From Synechococcus sp. MU1643 (GTDB taxonomy: Bacteria; Cyanobacteriota; Cyanobacteriia; PCC-6307; Cyanobiaceae): a stretch of 64,000 nucleotides of DNA. Of this stretch, positions 2,622 through 64,000 are shown one piece after another. Both the position numbers and the translations under genes were made by a program. The notes under the pieces were generated by a model, which was not told where the DNA came from, made no database searches, and saw nothing but the letters and a program-made list of their open reading frames with translations. Within the stretch, counting starts at the first letter, position 1. Each line of letters starts with the position of its first letter. The stretch lies in NCBI RefSeq assembly GCF_020514095.1, contig NZ_VTKY01000001.1:620001-684000 (forward strand). Reading direction: 5' to 3'.

Positions 2622-3761
2622 TCAACGGCGATCGGCCATCAGCGTCACAAAGCGGGCGAAATGATGGTCGGCGTCATGGGGGCCCGGACTCGCTTCCGGG
2701 TGGTATTGCACCCCGAAAACAGGCTTTTGACGATGGGCAATTGCTGCCACGGTGCGGTCGTTCAGATTGAAGTGGGTGACGTCAATCACGTCTGAATCCA
2801 GGGAATCGGCGGAGAGGGCAAAGCCGTGGTTCTGACTGGTGATTTCAACCTGGCCCGTGGTGCCACAGGGATGGTTCAGGCCGCGGTGGCCATAGGACAG
2901 CTTGAACGTCTCTCCGCCAAGGGCCAGACCAAGGATCTGATGGCCCAGACAGATGCCAAACAGGGGTAAATCGGATTCCTCCAGCAACATCTTGGCCAGG
3001 GCAATCCCGTGGGTCACCGCTGCTGGATCGCCAGGGCCGTTGGACAGAAAGACACCATCCGGGCGATGGGAGCGAACCGTGGCCAGATCCGTGTCTGCCG
3101 GCAGAACCGTGACGTCACAGCCATGGGCGACCAGTCGATCGAGAATGGCGCGCTTGATGCCGAAATCGATGGCGACAACGCGGAAGGGCTCGTCGCTGCG
3201 GCGCTGCAAACGCTGATCGAAGCCAACACTGCAGGCCTGATTCCACTGGTAGGGCTCACGGGTGGTGACACGGTCCGCCAGGTTCAGCCCCTGCATCGAC
3301 GGGGCCTGCTTCAGCAGCTCCAGCAACTGCGCCGGGGGCTGGCCGTCACTGCTGATCACGCCATTCATGGCCCCCACCTCACGCAGGTGACGCACCAAGG
3401 CACGGGTGTCCAAACCGCTGATGCCTACAAGCTGATGGGACTGCATCCAGCTTTCAAGCGGCTGTTCACAGCGCCAGTTGCTGGGCAATGGGGCCAGTTG
3501 GCGGGCAATCACGCCACGGGCATGGGGGCGATCAGCTTCTTGATCGTCAGCATTCACCCCTGTGTTGCCGAGTTCGGGATAGGTGAAGCTCACCAACTGT
3601 CCGGCATAGGAGGGGTCTGTAAGCACCTCCTGGTAACCGGTCATGCCGGTGTTGAACACCACCTCACCGATGGTGGTGCCGCGATGGCCGAAGCCAACAC
3701 CGGTGAGGACCGTGCCATCGGCAAGGACGAGATAAGCCTTGTCTGATGGTGAATCGGGCAT
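2622..3761 (-). CDS. carA: carbamoyl-phosphate synthase small subunit
   Basis: The glutaminase subunit of carbamoyl-phosphate synthase releases ammonia from glutamine for the large subunit, feeding arginine and pyrimidine synthesis. The N-terminal domain starts at [16 protein letters not shown] and includes [23 protein letters not shown]. The C-terminal class I glutamine amidotransferase domain has the nucleophile elbow [16 protein letters not shown] and the His-Glu partner [14 protein letters not shown]. Length of 379 residues is normal. The start at 3761 is preferred over 3782 because it gives the usual N-terminus. carB is not in the window, as is common in cyanobacteria. Confidence 0.96.
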
Positions 3762-3789
3762 CGAAGGGCCGCCGCAGGTCATCAGTCAC

Positions 3790-4836
3790 TCATTCTCCAT
3801 CTCCGTCGGACAGGGCATCCCGCAGAGCGACAAGCTTGTCCCAGGCCTTGCCCTCATTGAGAACAGTCAGAGCCTGAGCAACAGCAGCCGGCAGATCGCT
3901 TTGCAGCCCCGCAGCCCAGAGCACCAGTGCTGTGTTGAAGGCCACCACCTCGGTCTGGGCCAGCGATCCCTGCCCCTGCAGAACGTTCTGAAGGATCTGC
4001 TGGTTCACCGCGCAGTCACCACCGCGCAGCAGATCGAGACCGGCACGGGTCAGACCCAGGTCTTCAGGGGAGACCTCTTTTGTGGTGATGCCCCCGGATT
4101 CGATCAAACGCAAGGCATTGGGACCCGCCAACGAAGCCTCATCGAGGCCCCCAGCGCCGTGAACCACGACGGCACGGCTCAAGCCGAGTTGCTGCAAAGC
4201 TCCCGCCATGGGGTCGAGAAGCTCTGGACGCGCCACGCCAAGAACCTGCGCCTGGGGCTGAAGCGGATTAACCAGAGGGCCGAGCAGGTTGAACACCGTG
4301 CGAACCCCCAGGGTCCGTCGCAGCGGCGCCAGATTCACAAGAGCTGGATGCCAGGCGGGAGCGAACAGGAAGGTGACACCGGTTCCCGGCAAAGCCTCCA
4401 CCACTTTGTTTAACGGAGACTTAAGGTTGAGACCGAGCCCCTCGAGCACATCGGCTGAACCCACTTTGCCGCTGGCGCTGCGGTTGCCATGCTTGGCCAC
4501 ATTGACCCCGCAAGCAGCGGCGGTGAAGGCGACCGCCGTGGAGATATTGAAGGTATCTGCACCGTCACCACCGGTGCCGCAGGTGTCGACCATGGCCAGA
4601 TCGGGCTGGGCGCAGGGAAGGGGGCAGGCCTCGCGTAGGACAGCCGCCATGGCCGCCAGCTCATCGGCCACCATCCCTTTGGCTCTCAGTCCAGCCAGGA
4701 ACGCCCCGGTCTGCACGGGCTCGAGCTCTTCAGCTAGCCAGGCACGCATCAGGGCAGTGGCCCCATCGGAGCTGAGGTTGTTGCCCTGCAGCAGATGGTC
4801 CAAGCAACCGGACCAGGAACGCGGGTCTGAGGACAT
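3790..4836 (-). CDS. trpD: anthranilate phosphoribosyltransferase
   Basis: This 348-residue enzyme transfers the phosphoribosyl group from PRPP to anthranilate in tryptophan synthesis. It has the PRPP-binding glycine loop [17 protein letters not shown] near residue 85, the [18 protein letters not shown] segment, and the conserved [19 protein letters not shown] around residue 170. Length is normal for TrpD. It lies 28 bases upstream of carA on the same strand and the two may be cotranscribed. The sRNA-type terminator at 4855-4885 lies just upstream of its start. Confidence 0.96.
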
Positions 4837-4987: not shown

Positions 4988-6751
4988 ATGGCCGCCCTTC
5001 GTCTCGACCTGATCGGCCGCTATCTGCGTCCCCACCGCCGCACGGTGCTGCTGGGAGCCATTGCCTTGGTGGTGGTCAACGTTTTGCGGGTCACGATCCC
5101 GTGGGAAGTGCGCAGCGTTGTGGACGAGCTGCAGAAGGGATTCAGCTACGCCGGAGTCCTGCGCCAAGCGGGATGGGTTGTGCTGCTTGCGAGCACCATG
5201 GGCGTGATCCGGCTGACCTCGCGCCAACTCATCTTTGGTGTGGGTCGGCAGGTGGAAGTGGATCTGCGACAGCGCCTGTTCGAGCACATGCTCCGCCAGG
5301 AACCCGATTGGATTCAAGGCAAAGGCAGCGGTGAAGTAATCAGTCGAGCCACGAGCGATGTGGAAAACATCCGGCGCCTGCTCGGATTCGCGATTCTTAG
5401 CCTGACCAACACGCTGCTGGCCTATGCGCTGACGCTGCCCGCAATGTTGGCCATCGATCCGTGGCTGACCCTGGCCGCCGTCGGGCTCTACCCCGTGATG
5501 CTCAGCACGGTGCGCCTTTTCGGTGGGCGCATGATGCGTCAAAAGCGCGCGCAGCAGGAAGAACTCTCCGCCCTAAGCAACCTGATTCAAGAAGATCTCT
5601 CTGGGATCGGGGCCATCAAGATCTACGGCCAAGAGGGTGCGGAACAGGAGGCCTTCGCTTCACGTAACCGCCGCTATCGCGACAGCGCTATTCGGCTGGC
5701 GAGAACACAAAGCACCCTGTTCCCGCTGCTTCAGGGCATTTCATCCCTCTCTGTTCTTTTGCTGTTGGCCATCGGCAGCGGGCAACTCGCAGCCGGTCGT
5801 CTGAGCATTGGAGGACTGGTAGCCCTGATCCTTTATGTGGAGCAGCTCGTCTTCCCAACAGCATTGCTGGGATTCACGCTCAACACCTTCCAGACCGGCC
5901 AGGTGAGCCTCGAGCGGGTGGAGGAATTGCTGAAACGGGAACCAGAGATCAAAGACCCTGATCCCTCTGAAGTTCAGCCCCATCCAACAACCGACCGCCG
6001 GGGGCGTTTTGAAGCCCGCGGCCTGACGGTCAAATATCAAGGTGCTGAGCAGAACACCCTCAATGGCCTGCAGTTCTGCATCGAACCAGGGGAGTTGGTT
6101 GCCGTAGTAGGGGCCGTGGGCTGCGGCAAGACCACCCTGGCTCGGGCGTTCGGTCGCATGGTTCCACTGGAACCAGGACAACTGTTCCTGGATGGCGTGG
6201 ATGTCACCCAGATGCCTCTAAAGACGTTGCGCCGTGACGTGGCGATCGTTCCCCAGGAGGGCTTTCTGTTCACCAGCACCCTGGCGGACAACCTCCGCTA
6301 CGGCGATCCTGAGGCCAGTGATCAGCTGGTTGAGTTGGCGGCAGAACAAGCCCGTCTGGCTGATGACGTGAAGGGCTTTCCTGATGGTTTCGGAACCATC
6401 GTTGGGGAACGCGGCATCACGTTGAGTGGTGGTCAACGTCAACGCACAGCCCTGGGGCGGGCTCTTCTGATGTCGGCGCCGGTGTTGATCCTGGACGACG
6501 CCTTGGCAAGCGTCGACAACAACACGGCAGCGGCGATTTTGGATTCGATTCGAGCCCAGGATGATCGGACCATCGTGATGATCAGCCATCAACTTTCAGC
6601 CGCAGCGGCCTGTGATCGCATCCTGGTGATGGAGAACGGACGCATCGTTCAACAGGGACACCACAACGCCTTGATCCAACAGCCGGGTGTGTACAAACGT
6701 CTTTGGGAGCGTCAACAGGCATCTCAACAACTGGATGCGTTGGCTTCCTGA
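4988..6751 (+). CDS. ABC exporter (fused membrane and ATPase domains)
   Basis: This ~587-residue half-transporter has an N-terminal six-helix type 1 exporter membrane domain (about residues 15-310, starting LIGRYLRPHRRTVLLGAIAL) and a C-terminal ATPase. The ATPase shows Walker A VGAVGCGKTTLARA, the Q-loop IVPQEGFLFTSTLADN, signature LSGGQRQRTALGRALL and Walker B VLILDDALASVD with the switch His in MISHQLSAA. It probably works as a dimer exporting a lipid, peptide or drug; the substrate cannot be told. An in-frame ATG at 4949 would add 13 residues; 4988 gives the typical N-terminus. It is divergent from the sRNA/trpD unit. Confidence 0.92.
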   Translation: MAALRLDLIGRYLRPHRRTVLLGAIALVVVNVLRVTIPWEVRSVVDELQKGFSYAGVLRQAGWVVLLASTMGVIRLTSRQLIFGVGRQVEVDLRQRLFEHMLRQEPDWIQGKGSGEVISRATSDVENIRRLLGFAILSLTNTLLAYALTLPAMLAIDPWLTLAAVGLYPVMLSTVRLFGGRMMRQKRAQQEELSALSNLIQEDLSGIGAIKIYGQEGAEQEAFASRNRRYRDSAIRLARTQSTLFPLLQGISSLSVLLLLAIGSGQLAAGRLSIGGLVALILYVEQLVFPTALLGFTLNTFQTGQVSLERVEELLKREPEIKDPDPSEVQPHPTTDRRGRFEARGLTVKYQGAEQNTLNGLQFCIEPGELVAVVGAVGCGKTTLARAFGRMVPLEPGQLFLDGVDVTQMPLKTLRRDVAIVPQEGFLFTSTLADNLRYGDPEASDQLVELAAEQARLADDVKGFPDGFGTIVGERGITLSGGQRQRTALGRALLMSAPVLILDDALASVDNNTAAAILDSIRAQDDRTIVMISHQLSAAAACDRILVMENGRIVQQGHHNALIQQPGVYKRLWERQQASQQLDALAS

Positions 6752-8963: not shown

Positions 8964-9037
8964 CGGGGCGTGGCGCAGCTTGGTAGCGCACCACTTTGGG
9001 GTAGTGGGGGTCGTGGGTTCAAATCCCGCCGCTCCGA
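8964..9037 (+). tRNA. trnP: tRNA-Pro (anticodon TGG)
   Basis: A complete 74-nt cloverleaf is seen. The acceptor stem pairs CGGGGCG with CGCTCCG; the D-arm GCGC...GCGC encloses AGCTTGGTA; the anticodon loop TTTGGGG lies in stem CCACT/AGTGG and reads TGG; and the T-arm has GTGGG TTCAAAT CCCGC. The discriminator is A and CCA is not encoded. Confidence 0.96.
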
Positions 9038-56940: not shown

Positions 56941-57018
56941 GGGGGCTCGCATTGGTTGGCATTGGAACAGGCACCAGCGCAGTACAGCGTTTAAGTTCAC
57001 ATGCCTTTGTGCCTTGCC

Positions 57019-57144
57019 ATGGCTCTTCGAGAGACCAAACCTCAGGTGTCGCCACTGCGCCTGAAGATCACCGTGTTGGTCGCCGGCTTCGGACCACTAC
57101 TCGCCATCGGCCTGTGGCTTCAGTCCAAAGGTTTTTTCAACTGA
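57019..57144 (+). CDS. 41-residue single-helix membrane protein
   Basis: MALRETKPQVSPLRLKITVL... continues VAGFGPLLAIGLWLQSKGFFN, one helix with a basic N-terminus. An in-frame ATG at 57001 would add six residues. It is the last frame in picocyanobacterial style before the tandem repeat at 57202. Confidence 0.55.
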   Translation: MALRETKPQVSPLRLKITVLVAGFGPLLAIGLWLQSKGFFN

Positions 57145-57201
57145 CCTGACCTAGCCAGACACATTGCAGTAACTGACTGGTGTGCCCTTCTCAACTGAAG
57201 A

Positions 57202-57225
57202 ATAGGGACACACATAGGGACACAT
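57202..57225. repeat. 12-bp tandem direct repeat at the edge of the phage-like region
   Basis: ATAGGGACACAC is followed directly by ATAGGGACACAT, identical in 11 of 12 positions. An inverted partial copy, TGTCCCTA, lies at 57270-57277. Tandem plus inverted copies of this kind can be recombinase arm sites or operators. The position separates host-like genes from phage-like genes. Confidence 0.5.
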
Positions 57226-57303
57226 GAAGGGGCTCTCCCTTGGCTGGCCTTAGTGCCGGCTTGATCACTTGTCCCTAGACCTAGTTGGCTTTGCCGAGCC
57301 TCA

Positions 57304-57483
57304 ATGAACTGGAAGCGTGATGGCCTCGTGATCTGGAGACCAATCAAGGCTCTGCTGTTCGCAGACAAGGACGCCTTCTATTGGATCAAGAACAAGCTCG
57401 GCCTCACTGAGTACCAGATGGCTGCCTTGGTCTGGGTGAAGGGCATCGTCCTTGGCCTGTTGCTGGGCTGGTGGTTGTTCTGA
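57304..57483 (+). CDS. 59-residue membrane protein, unknown
   Basis: MNWKRDGLVIWRPIKALLFA... continues DKDAFYWIKNKLGLTEYQMA and ends with the helix VKGIVLGLLLGWWLF. It is the only plus-strand frame in the phage-like region. Aromatic residues are abundant. It does not match high-light-inducible proteins, and no family is recognised. Confidence 0.6.
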   Translation: MNWKRDGLVIWRPIKALLFADKDAFYWIKNKLGLTEYQMAALVWVKGIVLGLLLGWWLF

Positions 57484-57930
57484 GAAGACCGCCTTCAACA
57501 GATGAGTAGGAGTAGATGAGGAATACGCGAGCCCGGCCATTCTCAACAGCGGCCGGCCTAACGAGAACCCAGTCATACCAATGGATCTCGAGGAATAGCT
57601 AGGCCTGCACTGACCATTGATCGATCCTCCGGTTTCGTCACACGGCCAGTCAGGACAAGGGGTCTGGGCCTGGCCCCACCCCCATCGATCGACCTGGGCC
57701 TACCCCACTCCCTTCCATGACCCCCACCCCCTCTGATTTCTCGAAGCCAGGGGGTATGCGGGGGAAGTTCGCCGCCCCGCATATGGGTATAGGGAACGGA
57801 GATTTCTCCCGATTTCACTCTGAGCCCCACGAGGATCGCCTACAAGGCCGGTCTCGGCTCCGATAGGTACGATCTACCACGCAAGGGGGTCAAGCCCGTT
57901 GCAGAGGGTTGCAGAGAGGTGTCAGGGTGT
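57484..57930. other. C-rich intergenic region at the 3' end of the phage-like operon
   Basis: No credible gene is seen; a minus frame at 57573-57830 is low-complexity. A direct repeat CTGGGCCT..CCCCAC occurs at about 57664-57680 and 57694-57709, and GTTGCAGAG occurs twice in tandem near 57898-57918. Base composition differs from both neighbours. Confidence 0.45.
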
Positions 57931-57967
57931 ACCCCCTCGAGGACGCCAAAGGCGGAGGAGAGGGGGT
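57931..57967 (-). other. strong stem-loop at the end of the phage-like operon
   Basis: ACCCCCTC pairs perfectly with GAGGGGGT, and inside it CGCC pairs with GGCG around AAA. Between the two stems each side carries the same unpaired GAGGA. It starts eight bases after the last gene of the minus-strand operon and has no T-run. It may stop or protect the transcript, or be a processing site. Confidence 0.55.
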
Positions 57968-57975
57968 GCTGAGCT

Positions 57976-58218
57976 TCAGAGGTAGTTCAGGTCGATGGTC
58001 TTCAAAGCGTTCACAAGGCTGATCGTGCCGGGATCTTCTTCTGGGTCGACAGTCACGTCCTGCTGCTTCAGGTACGTGAGCATGTTGCGGACACCAGCGT
58101 TATCAATCTCTCCGGTCATCAGCATCTGTTTGGCCTGGAGTTCAAGGATCTGCACGGTCAGTGCATGAACCTCAGCGGCCTGAGCTTCTGAGACTTTCTT
58201 CTTACTTGGTTTTGCCAT
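57976..58218 (-). CDS. phage-like small protein, unknown
   Basis: The 80-residue product MAKPSKKKVSEAQAAEVHAL... continues LTVQILELQAKQMLMTGEIDNAGVRNMLTYLKQQDVTVDPEED. The basic N-terminus followed by helices recalls small terminase or DNA-packaging proteins of podoviruses, but no motif decides it. It overlaps the upstream gene by 17 bp. Confidence 0.65.
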   Translation of the reverse strand: MAKPSKKKVSEAQAAEVHALTVQILELQAKQMLMTGEIDNAGVRNMLTYLKQQDVTVDPEEDPGTISLVNALKTIDLNYL

Positions 58219-58354
58219 CGTTGTTCTTGGTCTTGATTAGATACTTGGCCAACGACAAAGCGGCTTCCTGTTGTTTAGATAGAGAGGACTTGCCGGCACT
58301 ATCAAGGCTTAAACAAGCTTCGAGGTAAGCCACCTGAAGGTTAGGTAAGTCCAT
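58202..58354 (-). CDS. phage-like 50-residue protein
   Basis: MDLPNLQVAYLEACLSLDSA... ends SLAKYLIKTKNNDGKTK, helical and basic. It overlaps its neighbours on both sides (17 and 14 bp), a packing typical of phage operons. Function unknown. Confidence 0.55.
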   Translation of the reverse strand: MDLPNLQVAYLEACLSLDSAGKSSLSKQQEAALSLAKYLIKTKNNDGKTK

Positions 58355-58523
58355 GTTGGTGGGTGTCGTAGTAGTTAGAGATAAGGGCACTAACCTTGTA
58401 GTGTTCGAGCAGCATCGTGACGCCGCCCAGAACATCAGCAGAGTTGGTGCCGGTGTTCAACATCTTGGATAGCTTTATCTGACCCGTAGGTCTGCCACTC
58501 CGTTTAAGACGGATGATCTTCAT
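58341..58523 (-). CDS. phage-like 60-residue protein
   Basis: MKIIRLKRSGRPTGQIKLSK... continues MLNTGTNSADVLGGVTMLLEHYKVSALISNYYD. The frame overlaps the next gene by 14 bp. A second gene in this region (61468) starts in a similar MKI...R way, but the rest differs. Function unknown. Confidence 0.5.
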   Translation of the reverse strand: MKIIRLKRSGRPTGQIKLSKMLNTGTNSADVLGGVTMLLEHYKVSALISNYYDTHQHGLT

Positions 58524-58552
58524 GTTGTTGTTGTGGGAAAGATGAAATAGGC

Positions 58553-58732
58553 CTAGGAGTTGTCTGTGTCTCGATGTTGAGCCACATCAGCCAAAGCACA
58601 GTGGTTGCAGGGGAGCTCGGCTCTCCGTGCAGCATCTGAGAATGACTTGTATCTGTAGTCGGTAACGCATTGGCAGTGCCGACATTTATACACAATCCTA
58701 TGGCCGTCATCACTAATGATGAGGTGGGCCAT
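58553..58732 (-). CDS. 59-residue zinc-ribbon protein
   Basis: MAHLIISDDGHRIVYKCRHC... contains CRHCQC and, 27 residues on, CNHC, which would make a four-Cys zinc ribbon. It lies in the same orientation as the operon. Another frame overlaps this stretch but lacks the Cys pattern. Function unknown. Confidence 0.6.
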   Translation of the reverse strand: MAHLIISDDGHRIVYKCRHCQCVTDYRYKSFSDAARRAELPCNHCALADVAQHRDTDNS

Positions 58733-58756
58733 TGTTGCTTGTTTGATTAAAAGTGT

Positions 58757-59014
58757 TTAGTAACGCTTGCCCCGTTGTTTCATCTGCCTGAGCTTCCAGG
58801 CGTATGCATTGCGAGAAGCCTGGGCATCGAGCTTTGACTTGTCGGCACGTTCCTGTGCGACCTCAGCTTCGATACGGGCTTCCTCTCTGGCTTGTGCCTT
58901 AGAAGGACCCCGGCCGGAATAAGACCAGCCGAGGGAGTTGACCTTGGTCGGGTCCATCTCTTCAGGGAGAGGATGATCCTTCTCGAATTGGTTGTTGAAC
59001 TCCTCTTGTGTCAC
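58757..59014 (-). CDS. phage-like charged protein
   Basis: The 85-residue product, from a GTG start, reads VTQEEFNNQFEKDHPLPEEM..., then a charged helix (AREEARIEAEVAQERADKSKLDAQASRNAYAWKLRQMKQRGKRY). The start overlaps the upstream stop (GTGA), indicating coupling. Function unknown. Confidence 0.6.
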   Translation of the reverse strand: MTQEEFNNQFEKDHPLPEEMDPTKVNSLGWSYSGRGPSKAQAREEARIEAEVAQERADKSKLDAQASRNAYAWKLRQMKQRGKRY

Positions 59015-59259
59015 GCCGGGTACTCCACGGCGCCTGGTGGCAACTCCGAGTACTCCTGCATGGGTCCGGATCTTTCCCCTGCACCAGCAGCGGTCGAATA
59101 GCACTGGTAGGTCGTAGCGGCCTTGCTATCGATGCGGATGCAGTAGGCGAATTCAGGAAGGTCGCCACCCCGGCTAGGACCGCCGGTAGCGGAGGCAGAG
59201 GCAACGACACGTAAGGGAGCCCCTTCAGCAATGGGGCCGTGAATAGCAACTAGGGGCAT
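59011..59259 (-). CDS. phage-like 82-residue protein
   Basis: MPLVAIHGPIAEGAPLRVVA... contains GGDLPEFAYCIRIDSKAATTYQCYSTA and a Gly/Pro-rich end. It looks like a small beta-rich protein. Its stop overlaps the next gene's GTG. Function unknown. Confidence 0.55.
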   Translation of the reverse strand: MPLVAIHGPIAEGAPLRVVASASATGGPSRGGDLPEFAYCIRIDSKAATTYQCYSTAAGAGERSGPMQEYSELPPGAVEYPA

Positions 59260-59265
59260 TGGTCA

Positions 59266-59538
59266 TTAGTTAGTAGGGCTTGAGTCGGTGTCTGGGTGGT
59301 CAGAGAAACGGCGGAAGTCGTATGCCTCTGTGTCGTATTTGATGGGCTCTTCTGAGGTCTTCAGAACTCGTCCGAGACCGGTGGAGCTGACGTCGGTCAC
59401 CCCAGAGGGCTTACGTGTTCCCTCCGTGACGGTGATACCTCTATCCATCCAGTTCCCTTCGGGAGCCTTGTCGGATGCTTTGGGATGGCGCCCCACCTTG
59501 GGGGCACCGGGGCGGGGGATCTTGATGTCCTTGCTCAT
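59266..59538 (-). CDS. phage-like 90-residue protein
   Basis: MSKDIKIPRPGAPKVGRHPK... is polar and probably partly disordered, with SDKAPEGNWMDRGITVTEGTRKPSGVTDVSSTG. The ATG overlaps the TGA of the upstream gene by four bases. Function unknown. Confidence 0.6.
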   Translation of the reverse strand: MSKDIKIPRPGAPKVGRHPKASDKAPEGNWMDRGITVTEGTRKPSGVTDVSSTGLGRVLKTSEEPIKYDTEAYDFRRFSDHPDTDSSPTN

Positions 59539-60044
59539 GACTGATCACTGCCCTCCAGAGCGTCCAGACGCTTGAGCACCTGGGAGAGCTTCTTCTCCAG
59601 TCGGGTGATGATCCGAGACTTGGCTTGGAGATCTGCCTGGAGGTTGACGGGTTGAGATGCCTCTACCGCTTCGCGGTGGGCTTCAGCTTCCTCAAGCTCC
59701 TGAAGACGACGGTCTGCTTCCTTCTTGTCGAGACGATCAAAGATGCCGGCACTAGGTGCAGTCACCTCTGCTCTGTCGGCATAGGGGCGGGTCACCTTCG
59801 TGATGTCACCGCGCAAGGCAGGGATGTGTGAGGTGGGCTTGTAGGAGGTGGCTGGGGTCAGCTCAACCTCTTCCCGGTCCTCGGGCTGGGAATAGTCGAC
59901 AGGCTCCGCCTTCTTGAGGGTGTTGGAGGCCTGGATCTCTTCCCGGTAACGAGCCTTTGCTTCTTGCTCGATTCTCTCCATAGCTGCCAGAGCAGCATCA
60001 GAGATGGTTGATACTTTCGATGTTGTGGTGTTGTTGTCAGACAT
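59535..60044 (-). CDS. phage-like coiled-coil protein
   Basis: The 169-residue product has helices near residues 15-40 (DAALAAMERIEQEAKARYREEIQAS) and a coiled coil from about 105 to the end (RLDKKEADRRLQELEEAEAHREAVEAS and IITRLEKKLSQVLKRLDALEG). It lies six bases after the scaffold-like gene. In podoviruses the gene after the scaffold is the capsid; this protein is too short and helical for that. Function unknown. Confidence 0.65.
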   Translation of the reverse strand: MSDNNTTTSKVSTISDAALAAMERIEQEAKARYREEIQASNTLKKAEPVDYSQPEDREEVELTPATSYKPTSHIPALRGDITKVTRPYADRAEVTAPSAGIFDRLDKKEADRRLQELEEAEAHREAVEASQPVNLQADLQAKSRIITRLEKKLSQVLKRLDALEGSDQS

Positions 60045-60050
60045 TGTTTA

Positions 60051-60869
60051 TCAGGCGAGTGTGATCGATCCGTCAGAGAGCATCTGCTGTGCAGTTGCTA
60101 GGAGCTGCGGGTCCTTCATGGCCTGGGCCATTGCAGCGGCTTGAGTCAGTTCACCTGATGCAACCTTGTTGCTCAGATCAACAACAGCGTCAGCCTTGGC
60201 GCCATAACGCTCACCCAGCTGTTTGGCATAGGCATCATCGAAACCCATCTTGGTTTGGACGTTGCCCTTAGCGGCTTGTTCCATCCGTGTCTTGGCAACC
60301 GTCATCGCGATGATTGCGTCGTCGGAGTTGTCTGACTGAAGAGCCTTCAACACAGTGCGGGCTTCATCATCTGAGTAATTCTCATTGATGTAGGAGATCA
60401 CCTCATCAGCCTTGTCGGCACCACCCATTGCATTGTTGACATCAACAGCAGCAGGGAGATCTGTGAACCTCTGTTGTGGTTGTTCCTCCACAACCTCTTG
60501 TGCTTTGGGTTCTTCCTGAGCGGGAGTAGAGGCCTTAGGTGTAGCGGGTGCTTTCTTGTCTTGAACGATGGGAACATCGCCAGCCACAAACGCATCGAGC
60601 ATTGCTTCGAGACGCTGTGCTTCGTGATAATCACCACGGTCCTCGGCTTCGTTGCGAGCCTTCAGGAACTTGTGGAGCTGGTGATCACTGTGATCGAGAG
60701 GATCAAGGAATCCCGCACCGGAGTGCCGGTAAGTCAGATTCTCTTGAGCACGATCAAATGACCGTTGTGATTGTTGCTCAGCTTGAGCTTGTAGATCAAC
60801 GGCTTGTTCTTCGGAGCCGCCTCCGGACCATTCAGCTACGTCAGCAGCTGTGGGCACGTATTCGGGCAT
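60051..60869 (-). CDS. phage scaffolding/capsid-assembly-like protein
   Basis: The 272-residue product is acidic and helical. It has DRGDYHEAQRLEAMLDAFVAGD, a Pro/Glu/Gln-rich linker (about 108-140) and a C-terminal region with GGADKADEVISYINENYSDDEARTVLKALQSDNSDDAIIAMTVAKTRMEQAAKG. The late segment resembles the part of T7 gp9-type scaffolds in which a WA...L......FN.AL.SGD..A pattern occurs. The match is by style, not by diagnostic motif. Other helical phage proteins are possible. Confidence 0.5.
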   Translation of the reverse strand: MPEYVPTAADVAEWSGGGSEEQAVDLQAQAEQQSQRSFDRAQENLTYRHSGAGFLDPLDHSDHQLHKFLKARNEAEDRGDYHEAQRLEAMLDAFVAGDVPIVQDKKAPATPKASTPAQEEPKAQEVVEEQPQQRFTDLPAAVDVNNAMGGADKADEVISYINENYSDDEARTVLKALQSDNSDDAIIAMTVAKTRMEQAAKGNVQTKMGFDDAYAKQLGERYGAKADAVVDLSNKVASGELTQAAAMAQAMKDPQLLATAQQMLSDGSITLA

Positions 60870-61467
60870 AGTTTTAAGTACACCGGCACAGGGCCGGGAA
60901 TCAGACGTTGGTGTAGACGCCGCACACGGAGTGGTTACCGGATCACCTTTTCGTGATCTATATTGTGCGAAATGCCAGCATCAGGACTTGCACCTGAAAG
61001 GCAGCTTTGACTGCACTGGAACAACAAGTAAAGAGGCTCTAAGAAAAGAGCTGATAACTCACACTATCAATGATGACGAGCAAATGAAAAGGGGATAGGT
61101 CGTTGGAACTACCCCCTCTTCAACTCACCGCATTTGACCCCGAAAGAAGGGTCTTTATCCACACACGGACCGCACCACTGGTCCCGTGATTAACTCAGCT
61201 GCATTGGTGCCCAGCTGTTGGCACAAGGGTGGCTAGGGAATCGAACCCTAAGAGAATGATGCTATGAACATCGACTCAACCTATACACCCGGGAAACCCA
61301 TGGTCGTCACAACGTCATGGGGCCTTGATCTGTTCAGATATGAAGGGCCAATCCCCGTGGGGAATCTTCCTATCAAGGTGGAGGCTCACCTTAGATAAAC
61401 ACAACCCCAGAACCGTTGCCGGGCCCCGAGTCTCCTCATTACAAAAGTAGTGTTTTACCACCACACT
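60870..61467. other. 600-bp structured non-coding region with tRNA-like pieces
   Basis: No gene is seen. On the minus strand it holds several good hairpins: GTGCC/GGCAC (about 61207-61224), CACGG-GACC/GGTC-CGTG (about 61161-61186) and GACCC/GGGTC (about 61137-61154). A T-arm-like TCAGG-TGCAAGT-CCTGA lies at about 60979-60995, next to TGCTGGC. At about 61400-61476 a D-arm-like GTGT..GGTAAA..ACAC precedes an anticodon-like CTACTTTTGTAATG. The piece at 61226-61290 is listed separately. Confidence 0.5.
61226..61290 (-). other. degenerate tRNA-Met(CAT)-like element
   Basis: On the minus strand the acceptor strands GGGTGTA and GCCACCC pair at five of seven positions. The anticodon loop TTCATAG (CAT) has a four-pair stem GATG/CATC, and the T-arm TAGGG-TTCGATT-CCCTA is canonical. 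The D-arm is cut to about ten bases, so total length is 65. It is either a decayed tRNA or a tRNA-derived attachment remnant. Confidence 0.4.
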
Positions 61468-61686
61468 TCAGTTGGCAGTGGCCGCCACTTGCTTGCGCTT
61501 TGCCACGATCGGGTGATTGGGACATGCAGCAGGGTCTACCCAGAGTGAGGTGTATCCCTCAGGGCGTGGGGAGAACTTACTGTTGCGATAAGTCCTGATC
61601 ACATAGTCGTTAGGCTTCATGGTCTTATTGGTCACCACCACCTGAACAGCAGGGCAGCGGTGCTTTCTGATTGAGAGGATCTTCAT
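61468..61686 (-). CDS. phage-like 72-residue protein
   Basis: MKILSIRKHRCPAVQVVVTN... continues MKPNDYVIRTYRNSKFSPRPEGYTSLWVDPAACPNHPIVAKRKQV. It has Cys-His elements (RKHRCP, AACPNH) that could bind a metal. It lies between the 159-residue gene and the structured region. Function unknown. Confidence 0.55.
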   Translation of the reverse strand: MKILSIRKHRCPAVQVVVTNKTMKPNDYVIRTYRNSKFSPRPEGYTSLWVDPAACPNHPIVAKRKQVAATAN

Positions 61687-61719
61687 TTGTGGGTGGTTGG
61701 GTGGATGGGTGGAATAGAT

Positions 61720-62199
61720 CTAGAAATCGAAGTAGATCTTGTCGACAGAACCTGACGGCACTACCTCAGCGAAGGTCTGTGCAGGCTGACTCTCTTGAAC
61801 AAGTTCGTCACAGCAGTTGAGCTGTAGGCGTACACCTTTGATGTCACCACTTTCCACTGTGCGGATGTGATTGATCTCGATGCGTACCTTGAGGTCTACT
61901 TGAGTTCCCTGTTGGATCTCACCAGAAGTGAGAGGTGTATTGATGGTTTCGAAGACAAGCTCACGAGCAATGATTGCTTCCTGCACAAGCTGTGCTCTAT
62001 TTGCACAGTGCTCGCCAAGGAAACTATCTAGCCACATGGCATAGCTTGTCTGCCATCCGTTGTACGAAGGTTGGACTGCTACCCAGTAGCGTCCCTCTTC
62101 CTTTTCGGTAAGGCTGTGATCACAGACCACTGCATTGAAGCGGAAGTCTTGATCTAGCTCCAGGATATTTCCGAAGCTCTTTGTTCCTGTGAAGGTCAT
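61720..62199 (-). CDS. phage-like protein, unknown
   Basis: The 159-residue product MTFTGTKSFGNILELDQDFR... contains GRYWVAVQPSYNGWQTSYAMWLDSFLGEH and beta-rich segments (VDLKVRIEINHIRTVESGDIKGVRLQLNCCDEL). Its acidic C-terminus with an aromatic end (DKIYFDF) resembles the tail of phage single-stranded-DNA-binding proteins, but the core does not decide this. An in-frame ATG at 62250 would lengthen it. Confidence 0.6.
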   Translation of the reverse strand: MTFTGTKSFGNILELDQDFRFNAVVCDHSLTEKEEGRYWVAVQPSYNGWQTSYAMWLDSFLGEHCANRAQLVQEAIIARELVFETINTPLTSGEIQQGTQVDLKVRIEINHIRTVESGDIKGVRLQLNCCDELVQESQPAQTFAEVVPSGSVDKIYFDF

Positions 62200-62273
62200 G
62201 AATGTTTGAAATGATGTCAGCCCCAGTGGTGTTCTGGGACTGCACACCATCCATCACCCTGTCTAGGGTCATG

Positions 62274-62546
62274 TCATGGAGATTCCAACTGGTGATAAGT
62301 CATAACCAGCATCTGAATCTGTTTCGACAGGTCCTTGATCTGATCAACACTGAGGTGATCAAGCTGATTAGGAGAGATGCCAAGCTGTGTTGGAGAAAGA
62401 CCTAGGGCCTTAGCGTTGCGTCCGTTAGAACGCAGGTTGGTGTTTAGAGCTCTAGGGTTCTCATTGTTAGTCCTAAAGCCATCACCATATCGTGTGGTTT
62501 GCATGGTGTTTGTCTGGTGGAAGGTGGGTAGGTGCCGTCTATTCAT
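62274..62546 (-). CDS. phage-like small protein, unknown
   Basis: The 90-residue frame is polar at first (TTRYGDGFRTNNENPRALNT) and ends with a helical part, ISPNQLDHLSVDQIKDLSKQIQMLVMTYHQL. A start at 62504 (MQTTRYGDG) is also possible. It lies in the same orientation as the polymerase, after a 330-bp gap. Function unknown. Confidence 0.5.
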   Translation of the reverse strand: MNRRHLPTFHQTNTMQTTRYGDGFRTNNENPRALNTNLRSNGRNAKALGLSPTQLGISPNQLDHLSVDQIKDLSKQIQMLVMTYHQLESP

Positions 62547-62878
62547 CCTCGTTTAGATGGGATAGATAGACTGCACTAACTCCGCTACATACGATGTGGA
62601 GGAATCGTTCCGATAGGCCACATAGGTATTAGGGGTATGTGTGACTGAACGGGTAACTGACCTCCGTTTGGTTCCTAAAATAGTTGCCAAACGAAGACCA
62701 GTCTGACCCAATCAGCCGGGGCTGAGTGACTGCTCAAGATTCGGCATAACTCCGTTTTCGGCCGATCTGAGGGGAGAGATCTAGTGTTCTCTATTGGGAT
62801 ACACTTCTCAGCCCAGTTGTAGCAACTAATCTCAGCAAAAATGAGGCTCAAAATGAGCCCCAAACTTGCAAAAACTGA
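62547..62878. other. intergenic region downstream of the phage-type polymerase
   Basis: No gene is seen. It holds the polymerase terminator (62836-62861), an inverted repeat CGTTTGG/CCAAACG spanning about 62665-62695, and, on the minus strand, TAATACC...CCTATCGG (62610-62632), which loosely recalls a T7-type promoter. The promoter idea is weak because the spacing differs by three bases. Confidence 0.4.
62836..62861 (-). terminator. terminator after the T7-type RNA polymerase gene
   Basis: On the minus strand GGGGCTCA / TGAGCCTC, with TTT in the loop, is followed by ATTTTTG. The T-run is moderate. It lies 17 bp after the polymerase stop. Confidence 0.6.
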
Positions 62879-64000
62879 TCAGCAGATGCTGTAGCTGCTG
62901 TGCACAACATCGAGAGGATCGAATGATCCATGTCGTGGAACTGGGTGCTGAGTGACATCACAGGAGGCCATTGCATTGTCGAGGTAGCCAGACGTCATTG
63001 CGGCTAACAAAGCAGCCTTAAAGAACTCCAGACCTGCCTCTAGGGCCCTGCCTGGTGGCAACCCGATGCAGTCATGAATGATCGTCACAGGGACGTTCGA
63101 TTCCAGGCTGTCCAGGTTGTTCACCGTGTGGCCGATCACAAAGGCATCGAGTGCGTGGATCAGGTTCGGCGGTAGTGCCTTCACCATGTCCTTGTGGTCC
63201 ATCTCCTGAAGGATGGTTGTGCCCTTGTGCTGTCGATGCTTCTCACGGGGGTCAAACAAGCTGTGGGTGGTGATGTGGTCCACCCGGAACTGCCGGCCCC
63301 GCTCCTGCTTCTTCGGGTAGCGAAGGATCATCTGAGAGCCATCCGGGATGGTGATTGGTAGAGCCATCACTGGCACCCCGTTCTCATCCACCCGCAGTTG
63401 ATCTGTGATGGTGCCGTCTGCTCCCTTGATCTCCTGGTGTGTTGCCAGGTGACCGAAGCGATGGGCCCAGGCCACGTATTCACCAAGGGCTGGGATGACC
63501 TTGGCCACTGCAGCCTCGAAGAAGTAGCCAACGCCGTAGGCCTCTTCCCAGGACAGTCGAGCGGCTTTGCTCTTCTGATCAAGGATGTGACCGAAGCGGT
63601 ACTCCTTCTTCAGTTCCCCGATGCACTTCCCGTGGCCAGCTCCGTAGAGCTTGGGAAGGAAGGCTTTCTTGATTGCCTTTCTGACGGCACCCATCGAAGC
63701 GGGGTCCTTCTTGAGCAGCTGCTTCACCCGTGAGATCTTCATGCACTTGGTAGTGCCGTTTGCATCTGTGATCTCATTGCCGTGTCGATTCCGAAGGGGA
63801 ATAAACAGGTCGGCATCTTTGATCATCTTCTGCATCTCCCGGTAGGTGTTCTGGTAGATGTCGAACACCTCAGCCCCATTCCTGATGAGGTTGGTGGCCT
63901 TGGCTGTTGCTCCAGAGGTCAGGAGCCCACCGATCAGCTGACCGCCTGAGCAGGTCGCGTCACGGGTGACGATGATCCCGGTGGTCTGGTCCTCGTCCCG
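62879..64000 (-). CDS. T7-type single-subunit DNA-directed RNA polymerase (C-terminal half; 5' part outside window)
   Basis: About 373 codons are visible, running in from the right edge. Three catalytic landmarks of the T7 family are present in order: motif A VTRDATCSGGQ with the first Asp (codon near 63960), motif B KAIKKAFLPKLYGAGHGK with the Lys and Tyr-Gly, and motif C VTIIHDCIGLPPG with the second Asp (near 63073). The end, DPLDVVHSSYSIC, matches the family's D..V..S.Y.F. tail. Distance from motif A to the end (~360 residues) equals that in T7. Such enzymes transcribe phage genomes from their own promoters. No stop or frameshift is visible, so the gene may be functional. Confidence 0.9.
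   Translation of the reverse strand, partial: RDEDQTTGIIVTRDATCSGGQLIGGLLTSGATAKATNLIRNGAEVFDIYQNTYREMQKMIKDADLFIPLRNRHGNEITDANGTTKCMKISRVKQLLKKDPASMGAVRKAIKKAFLPKLYGAGHGKCIGELKKEYRFGHILDQKSKAARLSWEEAYGVGYFFEAAVAKVIPALGEYVAWAHRFGHLATHQEIKGADGTITDQLRVDENGVPVMALPITIPDGSQMILRYPKKQERGRQFRVDHITTHSLFDPREKHRQHKGTTILQEMDHKDMVKALPPNLIHALDAFVIGHTVNNLDSLESNVPVTIIHDCIGLPPGRALEAGLEFFKAALLAAMTSGYLDNAMASCDVTQHPVPRHGSFDPLDVVHSSYSIC

Follow-up and report, generated by a model that had tools for sequence, protein, structure and literature searches.

The window, a stretch of 64,000 nt, corresponded to positions 620001-684000 of contig 1 (C1) in a draft genome of 2.07 Mb and 13 contigs. The contig extends 13.7 kb to the right of the window, and this extension was analysed as L003, in which position p equals contig position 683999+p. 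A frame for a T7-type RNA polymerase (RNAP) was open from the right window edge to a stop at 62879 on the minus strand. Its C-terminal 373 codons occupied 62879-64000 (minus strand), and the remainder, including the N-terminus, lay beyond the window. The complete ORF of 957 aa spanned C1:682879-685752 (minus strand), with no internal stops. Pfam RNA_pol (PF00940) matched the protein with 79.6 bits (cut-off 22), and PHROG 414, "RNA polymerase", matched residues 14-954 (3.5e-90). In the alignment with T7 RNAP, all eight active-site residues checked were kept: D537, R627, K631, Y639, G640, H784, H811 and D812, which we take to be the T7 active-site list and whose letters were confirmed in the T7 record. 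Both the PF00940 match and the catalytic residues are thus present, as expected of a T7-type single-subunit RNAP, and the match is, at these scores, well beyond chance. The preliminary description had claimed intact catalytic motifs in an open T7-type frame on a picocyanobacterial chromosome, and the 957-aa ORF, its Pfam score and its eight residues confirm it. Two of the features that it proposed to look for to the right of the window, the polymerase N-terminus and an integrase, were also found, the former as the ORF runs on to C1:685752 and the latter as a tyrosine integrase (L003:8263-9450) at one end of the element described below.

The RNAP gene lies within an integrated element of 16,342 bp, which runs from window position 57130 to C1:693471 (= L003:9472) between exact 16-bp repeats. 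The portion within the window, 57130-64000, is defined by these end repeats and by the empty site in relatives. The left repeat, GGTTTTTTCAACTGAC, the attL core, was at 57130-57145 (plus strand), and its right copy at L003:9457-9472. The insertion site is the 3′ end of a 41-aa host ORF (57019-57144, plus strand), as placed by the sequence and by the flanks contiguous in relatives, and the insertion leaves this 3′ end undamaged. The host ORF had no NCBIfam match; it is conserved among relatives. At 57202-57226 (plus strand), TAGGGACACA occurs twice with a 12-bp spacing in an arm-site-like arrangement, with a similar pair around L003:9380-9404, and these pairs near both end repeats are putative integrase arm sites. 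The tyrosine integrase (L003:8263-9450, minus strand; at most 395 aa; PF00589 6.8e-7; PHROG integrase 1.1e-28) adjoined the right repeat copy. Chromosomal integration with a predicted integrase of its own and att sites is a satellite feature that the element presents.

The joined flanks (496 bp) were uninterrupted over nearly the whole query in five relatives (G197, G242, G004, G061 and G225), with 93% identity over query positions 4-495 in G197, and the query matched 15 of the 39 genomes searched at least partly, its own genome included. Five relatives carry the joined flanks without a gap, and exact 16-bp repeats stand at the ends, so the element is, on the evidence of these alignments, a clean insertion and no assembly chimera. 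A check for a chimeric join had been proposed across 57000-58000. The region does contain an edge, that of the element at 57130, and the chimera itself was not borne out. Although the assembly is a draft, the repeats, the contiguous empty sites and the occurrence of similar elements in one-contig genomes leave a negligible probability that host and phage DNA were joined artificially.

Directly upstream of the RNAP gene, L003:2132-2737 encoded a partial tyrosine recombinase (PF00589 5.7e-23) resembling the P-SSP7 integrase (E 2e-4, or 1e-6 with three phage integrases). The element also encoded a GIY-YIG/T5orf172 protein (L003:4089-4565; MUG113 3.7e-11), which weakly matched the PADLOC candidate PDC-S57 (8.7e-6), and the PADLOC scan of ten element proteins gave no other match. 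A thioredoxin-like protein (L003:6117-6413) was below cut-off, as were, for Pfam, two ribbon-helix-helix proteins at L003:6617-6967 (minus strand) and L003:7237-7620 (plus strand). Three ORFs, at L003:2922-3398, 3605-3994 and 5524-5922, had no assigned function. On the window side of the RNAP gene, all on the minus strand, a 176-aa protein (61720-62250) had no family matches, and two entries of the ORF list, of 90 aa (62274-62546) and 72 aa (61468-61686), had no accepted ones.

Candidate packaging-related and scaffold-related genes

The left part of the element encoded an 80-aa protein resembling the terminase small subunit (TerS) at 57976-58218 (minus strand; phrog_891, 6.6e-5). When this family was searched genome-wide (2.07 Mb), the sole match was at the same position (1.9e-4), and none of 14 control genomes had one. 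The comparison of the protein with phage TerS by hhalign gave 64%. A profile built from four phage TerS missed it, and its AlphaFold model (single sequence, pLDDT 71.7) had no fold match in PDB or BFVD at E ≤ 0.001. With the TerS profile, 5 of 400 genomes were positive; they all belong to the genus of the window, whose own genome is one of them.

G216 and G249 encode TerS 89-91% identical to that of the window, together with the neighbour gene and the adjacent gene-less stretch, and the blastn matches (L118, L120) covered 1.06 kb at 84-85% nucleotide identity. The neighbour, a 77-aa protein with no assigned function (58202-58435, minus strand), is TerS-linked in other elements, with 81% identity in L118 and L120, where it also adjoins TerS. 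The stretch without a listed gene, 57485-57975, lies beside TerS inside the 1.06-kb match, and we infer from its position that it is a candidate packaging or origin site. The G249 copy begins at a contig end and retains several further genes of the window's element. Matches in L120 were found for proteins of 115 aa (58757-59104; 83% identity over 82 aa), 90 aa (59266-59538; 78% over 86 aa) and 169 aa (59535-60044; 81% over 101 aa), all on the minus strand; the last also had a weak relative after the RNAP of the G034 element (E 2e-4). In the one-contig genome G216, the TerS element (L118:4399-13619) was ~9.2 kb long with 16-bp end repeats, and its ORFs did not include an RNAP. A tyrosine-integrase-like ORF lies there beside a glyS-like gene, both named by eye. 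The RNAP element on contig 10 of G314 (G314c) had the order RNAP, a protein of the scaffold-linked group described below, TerS. Since the G216 element has no RNAP among its ORFs, the predicted TerS packaging module occurs both with and without RNAP.

Another particle-related candidate was the core domain of the T7 gp9 scaffold, encoded by a 67-aa ORF at L003:6410-6613 (minus strand). This ORF was shorter than the initial ORF length limit and surfaced in a six-frame scan (2.3e-7), with PHROG 1052, "head assembly", at 2e-6 and PHROG 1018, "head scaffolding", at 3e-4. A full scaffold is much longer than this predicted domain, which might serve solely as an inhibitor. The scaffold-domain ORF and the start of the thioredoxin-like ORF have four bases in common (within L003:6117-6613), which suggests coupled translation. 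Taken singly, the TerS-like (6.6e-5) and scaffold-domain (2e-6) matches are each weak.

A 272-aa protein downstream of the RNAP gene (60051-60869, minus strand) matched a profile of its likely homologues in G034, G271 and G273b at 4.9e-5 and occupies the site of scaffold-family genes in related elements. Its alignment with the G034/G271/G273b proteins gave an hhalign value of 50% against the four phage scaffolds plus their G156 and G314a homologues (unrelated control, 0.1%) and of 54% against the scaffold-linked group (G147, G123, G343, G314c and G314b), which itself gave 86.7% against scaffolds. The PHROG scan returned no scaffold family for the 272-aa protein or for the G123, G147 and G314c members. 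It is possibly a weaker scaffold candidate.

We scanned in six frames 26 RNAP regions, that is, 25 places in other genomes and the window's, out of 44 listed places. A scaffold without capsid, portal or large terminase subunit (TerL) was found in G156, G314a, G089 and the window's element. The scaffold profile reached only 0.049 in the G123 region, and 18 of the 26 regions had no match to the four-phage scaffold profile at E ≤ 0.5; no decoy scored under 0.5. The scaffold-linked group, if counted, adds G123, G147, G314b, G314c and G343 to the scaffold-bearing elements.

Genes for a complete particle were not detected in the window's element. When 92 proteins of P-SSP7, S-CBP3, T7 and LUZ100 were compared with it by tblastn, the matches at E ≤ 0.01 were limited to RNAP. 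Six-frame profiles from the four phages for MCP, portal, TerL, gp11 and gp12 gave best E values of 0.41-1.3 over the element, and those for DNA polymerase, primase and exonuclease gave none better than 0.4. Scanning the initial list of 20 ORFs with PHROGs revealed no capsid, portal, large terminase or tail. The lack of a full-particle gene set is another satellite feature of the element, as far as such profiles can detect one. The preliminary description had read the locus as an Autographivirus-like prophage and proposed to look for capsid, DNA polymerase and terminase genes to the right of the window. Neither capsid nor DNA polymerase was detected there with the proteins of the four T7-like phages, and for terminase the small-subunit-like gene lies within the window and the large subunit was undetected. 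Because the structural and replication features tested were undetected, we do not regard the 16.3-kb element as a T7-like prophage. An Autographivirus prophage was rejected on the same grounds, with structural, DNA polymerase and primase-helicase genes undetected, and also because the RNAP stands outside the phage and cyanopodovirus branches (see below).

Polymerase relatives and candidate promoters

Of 400 genomes of the bacterial family, 35 had a PF00940 match, counting the window's own genome; the 14 controls had none. Sampling across the class gave 10 positive genomes out of 388, all ten of the same family. The 18 listed places outside the 26 regions are mainly short contigs or partial matches, and L119 and L121-L124 were compared with the window's proteins only. 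For several of the 26 regions, including G314a (15 kb), the contig is short, so that the absence of a gene says little. The fair test is given by the 11 one-contig genomes examined, out of 13 with an RNAP match. Within 34-36 kb around their RNAP, no capsid, portal or TerL matched at E ≤ 0.01; we attribute the TerL match in G271, at 0.34, to chance. The RNAP frame was unbroken in eight of the 11 and broken in G216, G075 and G173.

Among the 26 regions, capsid and portal were found in three (G025, G344 and G362) and TerL in three (G025, G344 and G273a). These four regions are phage-like contigs in fragmented assemblies. Contig 3 of G025, contig 17 of G344 and contig 8 of G362, of 42-45 kb, carry T7-like capsid, portal and tail genes, and they may represent either prophages or phages from infected cells. 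Contig 12 of G273 carries RNAP, TerL and TerS.

End repeats of RNAP elements measured 23 bp in G267, 41 bp in G156 and 20 bp in G075, for element sizes of ~10.6, 15.6 and 11.0 kb, respectively. The search for repeats of at least 14 bp found none in six of the 14 elements tried, and those of G216, G115, G079 and G129 (14-17 bp) are of doubtful meaning. The G267 and G156 elements (L039/L040 and L063/L064), from different genera, have in common the att core GCACGGCACAGCGGTTCACCC and the flanking gene clusters, and for this reason they probably use the same insertion site. We also observed RNAPs of 1062 aa at L047:14556-17744 and L071:3223-6411, with a long N-terminal extension that contains paired cysteines and reads, by eye, like a DNA-binding domain of the HNH/AP2 type. 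The G147 RNAP element encodes a gp2.5-like ssDNA-binding protein (L042:5099-5587; PHROG 112, 3.4e-16), and L068:1395-2770 holds a long array of 15-bp tandem repeats around TGCGGACCTG that resembles pentapeptide-repeat coding sequence.

In the maximum-likelihood tree (35 rows), 20 of the 21 chromosomal RNAPs were on one side of a branch (88/90, unstarred). The other side held ten phage rows, the four phage-like contigs and G144, the exception, which comes from a 5.8-kb contig and groups with phage RNAPs. The starred set that includes the window's RNAP has eight rows, all chromosomal (98/97); the exact place of this RNAP is unsure because its end branch is very long (2.42). When the best 80 of 443 IMG/VR RNAPs were added in FastTree, the 20 chromosomal proteins remained one group (0.92), into which no viral row fell. 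Both trees were midpoint-rooted and left out organellar and plasmid RNAPs. A tree with cyanopodoviruses had been proposed as a check; in it, the RNAP groups near phage RNAPs and lies outside the cyanopodovirus branch. The first IMG/VR scan found no relatives. The later RNAP scan found at least 591, of which the best 80, at 24-27% identity, are outside the trees. Neither a TerS relative in the IMG/VR scans nor a close RNAP relative among the matches listed was seen.

The motif GGGTTGCAC had six exact copies in the element, all on the RNAP (minus) strand (L003 positions 2740, 4067, 4616, 5175, 6957 and 7191), and one in the window's other 57 kb. Five copies were outside listed ORFs, and for three of these a listed gene begins no more than 150 bp downstream; the sixth was inside the longest reading of L003:6617-6967. 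The longer WNRGGGGTTGCAC occurred four times in the whole genome, each time in the element and on one strand, and its reversed control twice. Shuffling is the fairer test here, since the motif pattern was drawn from the element itself: none of 60 dinucleotide shuffles had a 9-mer above five copies, and GGGTTGCAC is among the 9-mers with at least six in the element. The motif may mark promoters of the element. Counter to this reading, one copy is oppositely oriented beside TerS in L118 and L120. In other RNAP elements, 10-mers repeated four times were also found in three of seven control segments, and a search with two mismatches did not clearly exceed its controls, which were noisy too; we therefore restrict the motif claim to the window's element. 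We also considered a resemblance to the Syn5 promoter (15 bp) and dropped it, as it requires a gap. The idea that the element might control its own expression is retained as a possibility, with an intact RNAP and a candidate promoter motif on its side.

Another repeat, TCAAGGGAGC, had eight copies in the element, all on the minus strand, and nine elsewhere in the genome (2.07 Mb). Its sites were at window 63420-63429 and at L003 1711-9191 (minus strand), and several were in coding sequence, spelling I/V-K-G-A in unrelated proteins, as judged by reading.

Interpretation and comparison with known systems

In our judgement, the 16.3-kb element is probably a satellite of T7-like cyanophages, integrated in the chromosome and equipped with its own single-subunit RNAP. 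The features behind this reading are the integrase, the element ends, the intact RNAP, the TerS-like protein, the scaffold domain, the undetected particle genes and the strand-biased motif, all of them seen in sequence. We infer from them a satellite life with helper-dependent induction, own transcription, packaging led by TerS and interference with capsids. Upon infection by a T7-like cyanophage, the integrase would excise the element, and its RNAP would transcribe the element genes from GGGGTTGCAC-type sites, independently of both the host RNA polymerase and the helper's polymerase. The TerS of the element could then steer the helper's large terminase onto satellite DNA, the scaffold domain could divert or block helper capsid assembly, and satellite DNA would exit in helper particles. 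T7-like cyanophages are a major cause of death among ocean picocyanobacteria. T7-like phages shut off host transcription, so a polymerase of its own would benefit a satellite of such phages. Against the satellite, the IMG/VR scans contained neither a TerS relative nor a close RNAP relative and thus no packaging sign, and no helper phage emerged from the analysis.

More broadly, picocyanobacteria may host an old and widespread lineage of T7-phage satellites, defined by own RNAP and promoters and by the lack of particle genes, which would escape host shutoff and the helper's polymerase and seize helper capsids through scaffold and TerS; this generalisation we put forward tentatively, at somewhat short of even chances. 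A polymerase-bearing satellite would be a resident enemy of T7-like cyanophages and a route of gene transfer, as well as a new answer to the question of how a parasite is transcribed in a cell whose transcription a phage has seized. The separate RNAP branch, with its candidate promoters, is open to immediate in vitro work.

The locus could instead be the remnant of an integrated T7-like prophage, in which the structural and replication genes were lost and the polymerase persists. As in P-SSP7 and S-CBP3, a recombinase gene, here partial and related to the P-SSP7 integrase, immediately precedes RNAP, and the RNAP is broken in three of the 11 one-contig genomes (G216, G075 and G173). T7-like cyanophages can integrate transiently (PMC8776855); the same source reports that isolates of marine Synechococcus and Prochlorococcus lack intact prophages. 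However, the window's RNAP is intact and is accompanied by intact element ends and an integrase, and a scaffold without capsid or TerL recurs across elements. Moreover, the 20 chromosomal RNAPs share a branch of their own (88/90; 0.92 with the 80 IMG/VR rows, none inside), a pattern that independent decay of different phages would not produce. We regard a remnant as unlikely.

An anti-phage island is quite improbable as well. Its TerS and scaffold fragments would be decoys that poison T7-like packaging and assembly, and it would move by its integrase, unpackaged. The scaffold piece is indeed a bare 67-aa core domain, the GIY-YIG-like protein has its weak PDC-S57 match, and the silence of the IMG/VR scans on packaging would fit; yet the other element proteins among the ten scanned had no PADLOC match, and the own polymerase, integrase and intact ends fit a mobile element. 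Satellite life and interference are, in any case, compatible. It is highly improbable that the element is a cargo element of the tycheposon kind, with the polymerase serving cargo expression. It shares with tycheposons the character of a tyrosine-recombinase island in picocyanobacteria, and some tycheposons are reported to be satellites (Hackl et al. 2023). The insertion here is at a protein gene and not at a tRNA gene, the target of tycheposons (PMC10872708); the window's one tRNA is at 8964 and L003 has none. Nor was a nutrient cargo recognised.

To our knowledge, no satellite with a T7-type RNAP is known. Among open-access papers, subscription papers and preprints being outside the scope, none was found that joins "phage satellite" with "single-subunit RNA polymerase", or "VEIME" with "RNA polymerase" and "Prochlorococcus", and none, by title and the start of the abstract, that describes such a satellite; a prior mention of single-subunit RNAP in the tycheposon literature is possible.

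Compared with Autographiviridae such as P-SSP7 and S-CBP3, the element has a PF00940 RNAP, a related recombinase just upstream, and TerS and gp9 scaffold homologues, as predicted from profile matches. It differs in that no capsid, portal, TerL, tail, primase or DNA polymerase was detected, and its RNAP, 23-28% identical over the matched parts, is on a separate branch. Tycheposons and VEIMEs likewise form genomic islands in marine picocyanobacteria and in other plankton, and some of them are regarded as satellites, but tycheposons target tRNA genes (PMC10872708), whereas the element targets a protein gene. The PICMIs of Vibrio (PMC10803314) are also small, marine, chromosomally integrating satellites, and their helper is a virulent phage; they have no identifiable packaging or capsid-remodelling genes, whereas the element has candidates for both. 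With P4 and the SaPI/PICI family, the element has in common an integrase, the lack of a full set of particle genes, and, as candidates, TerS and scaffold-type proteins. SaPIs (through TerS and scaffold) and P4 (through Sid) redirect packaging or capsids (PMC10690885). The element differs from them in having its own RNA polymerase. Satellites with integrase, TerS and scaffold are thus already known, and the T7-type RNAP is the added feature.
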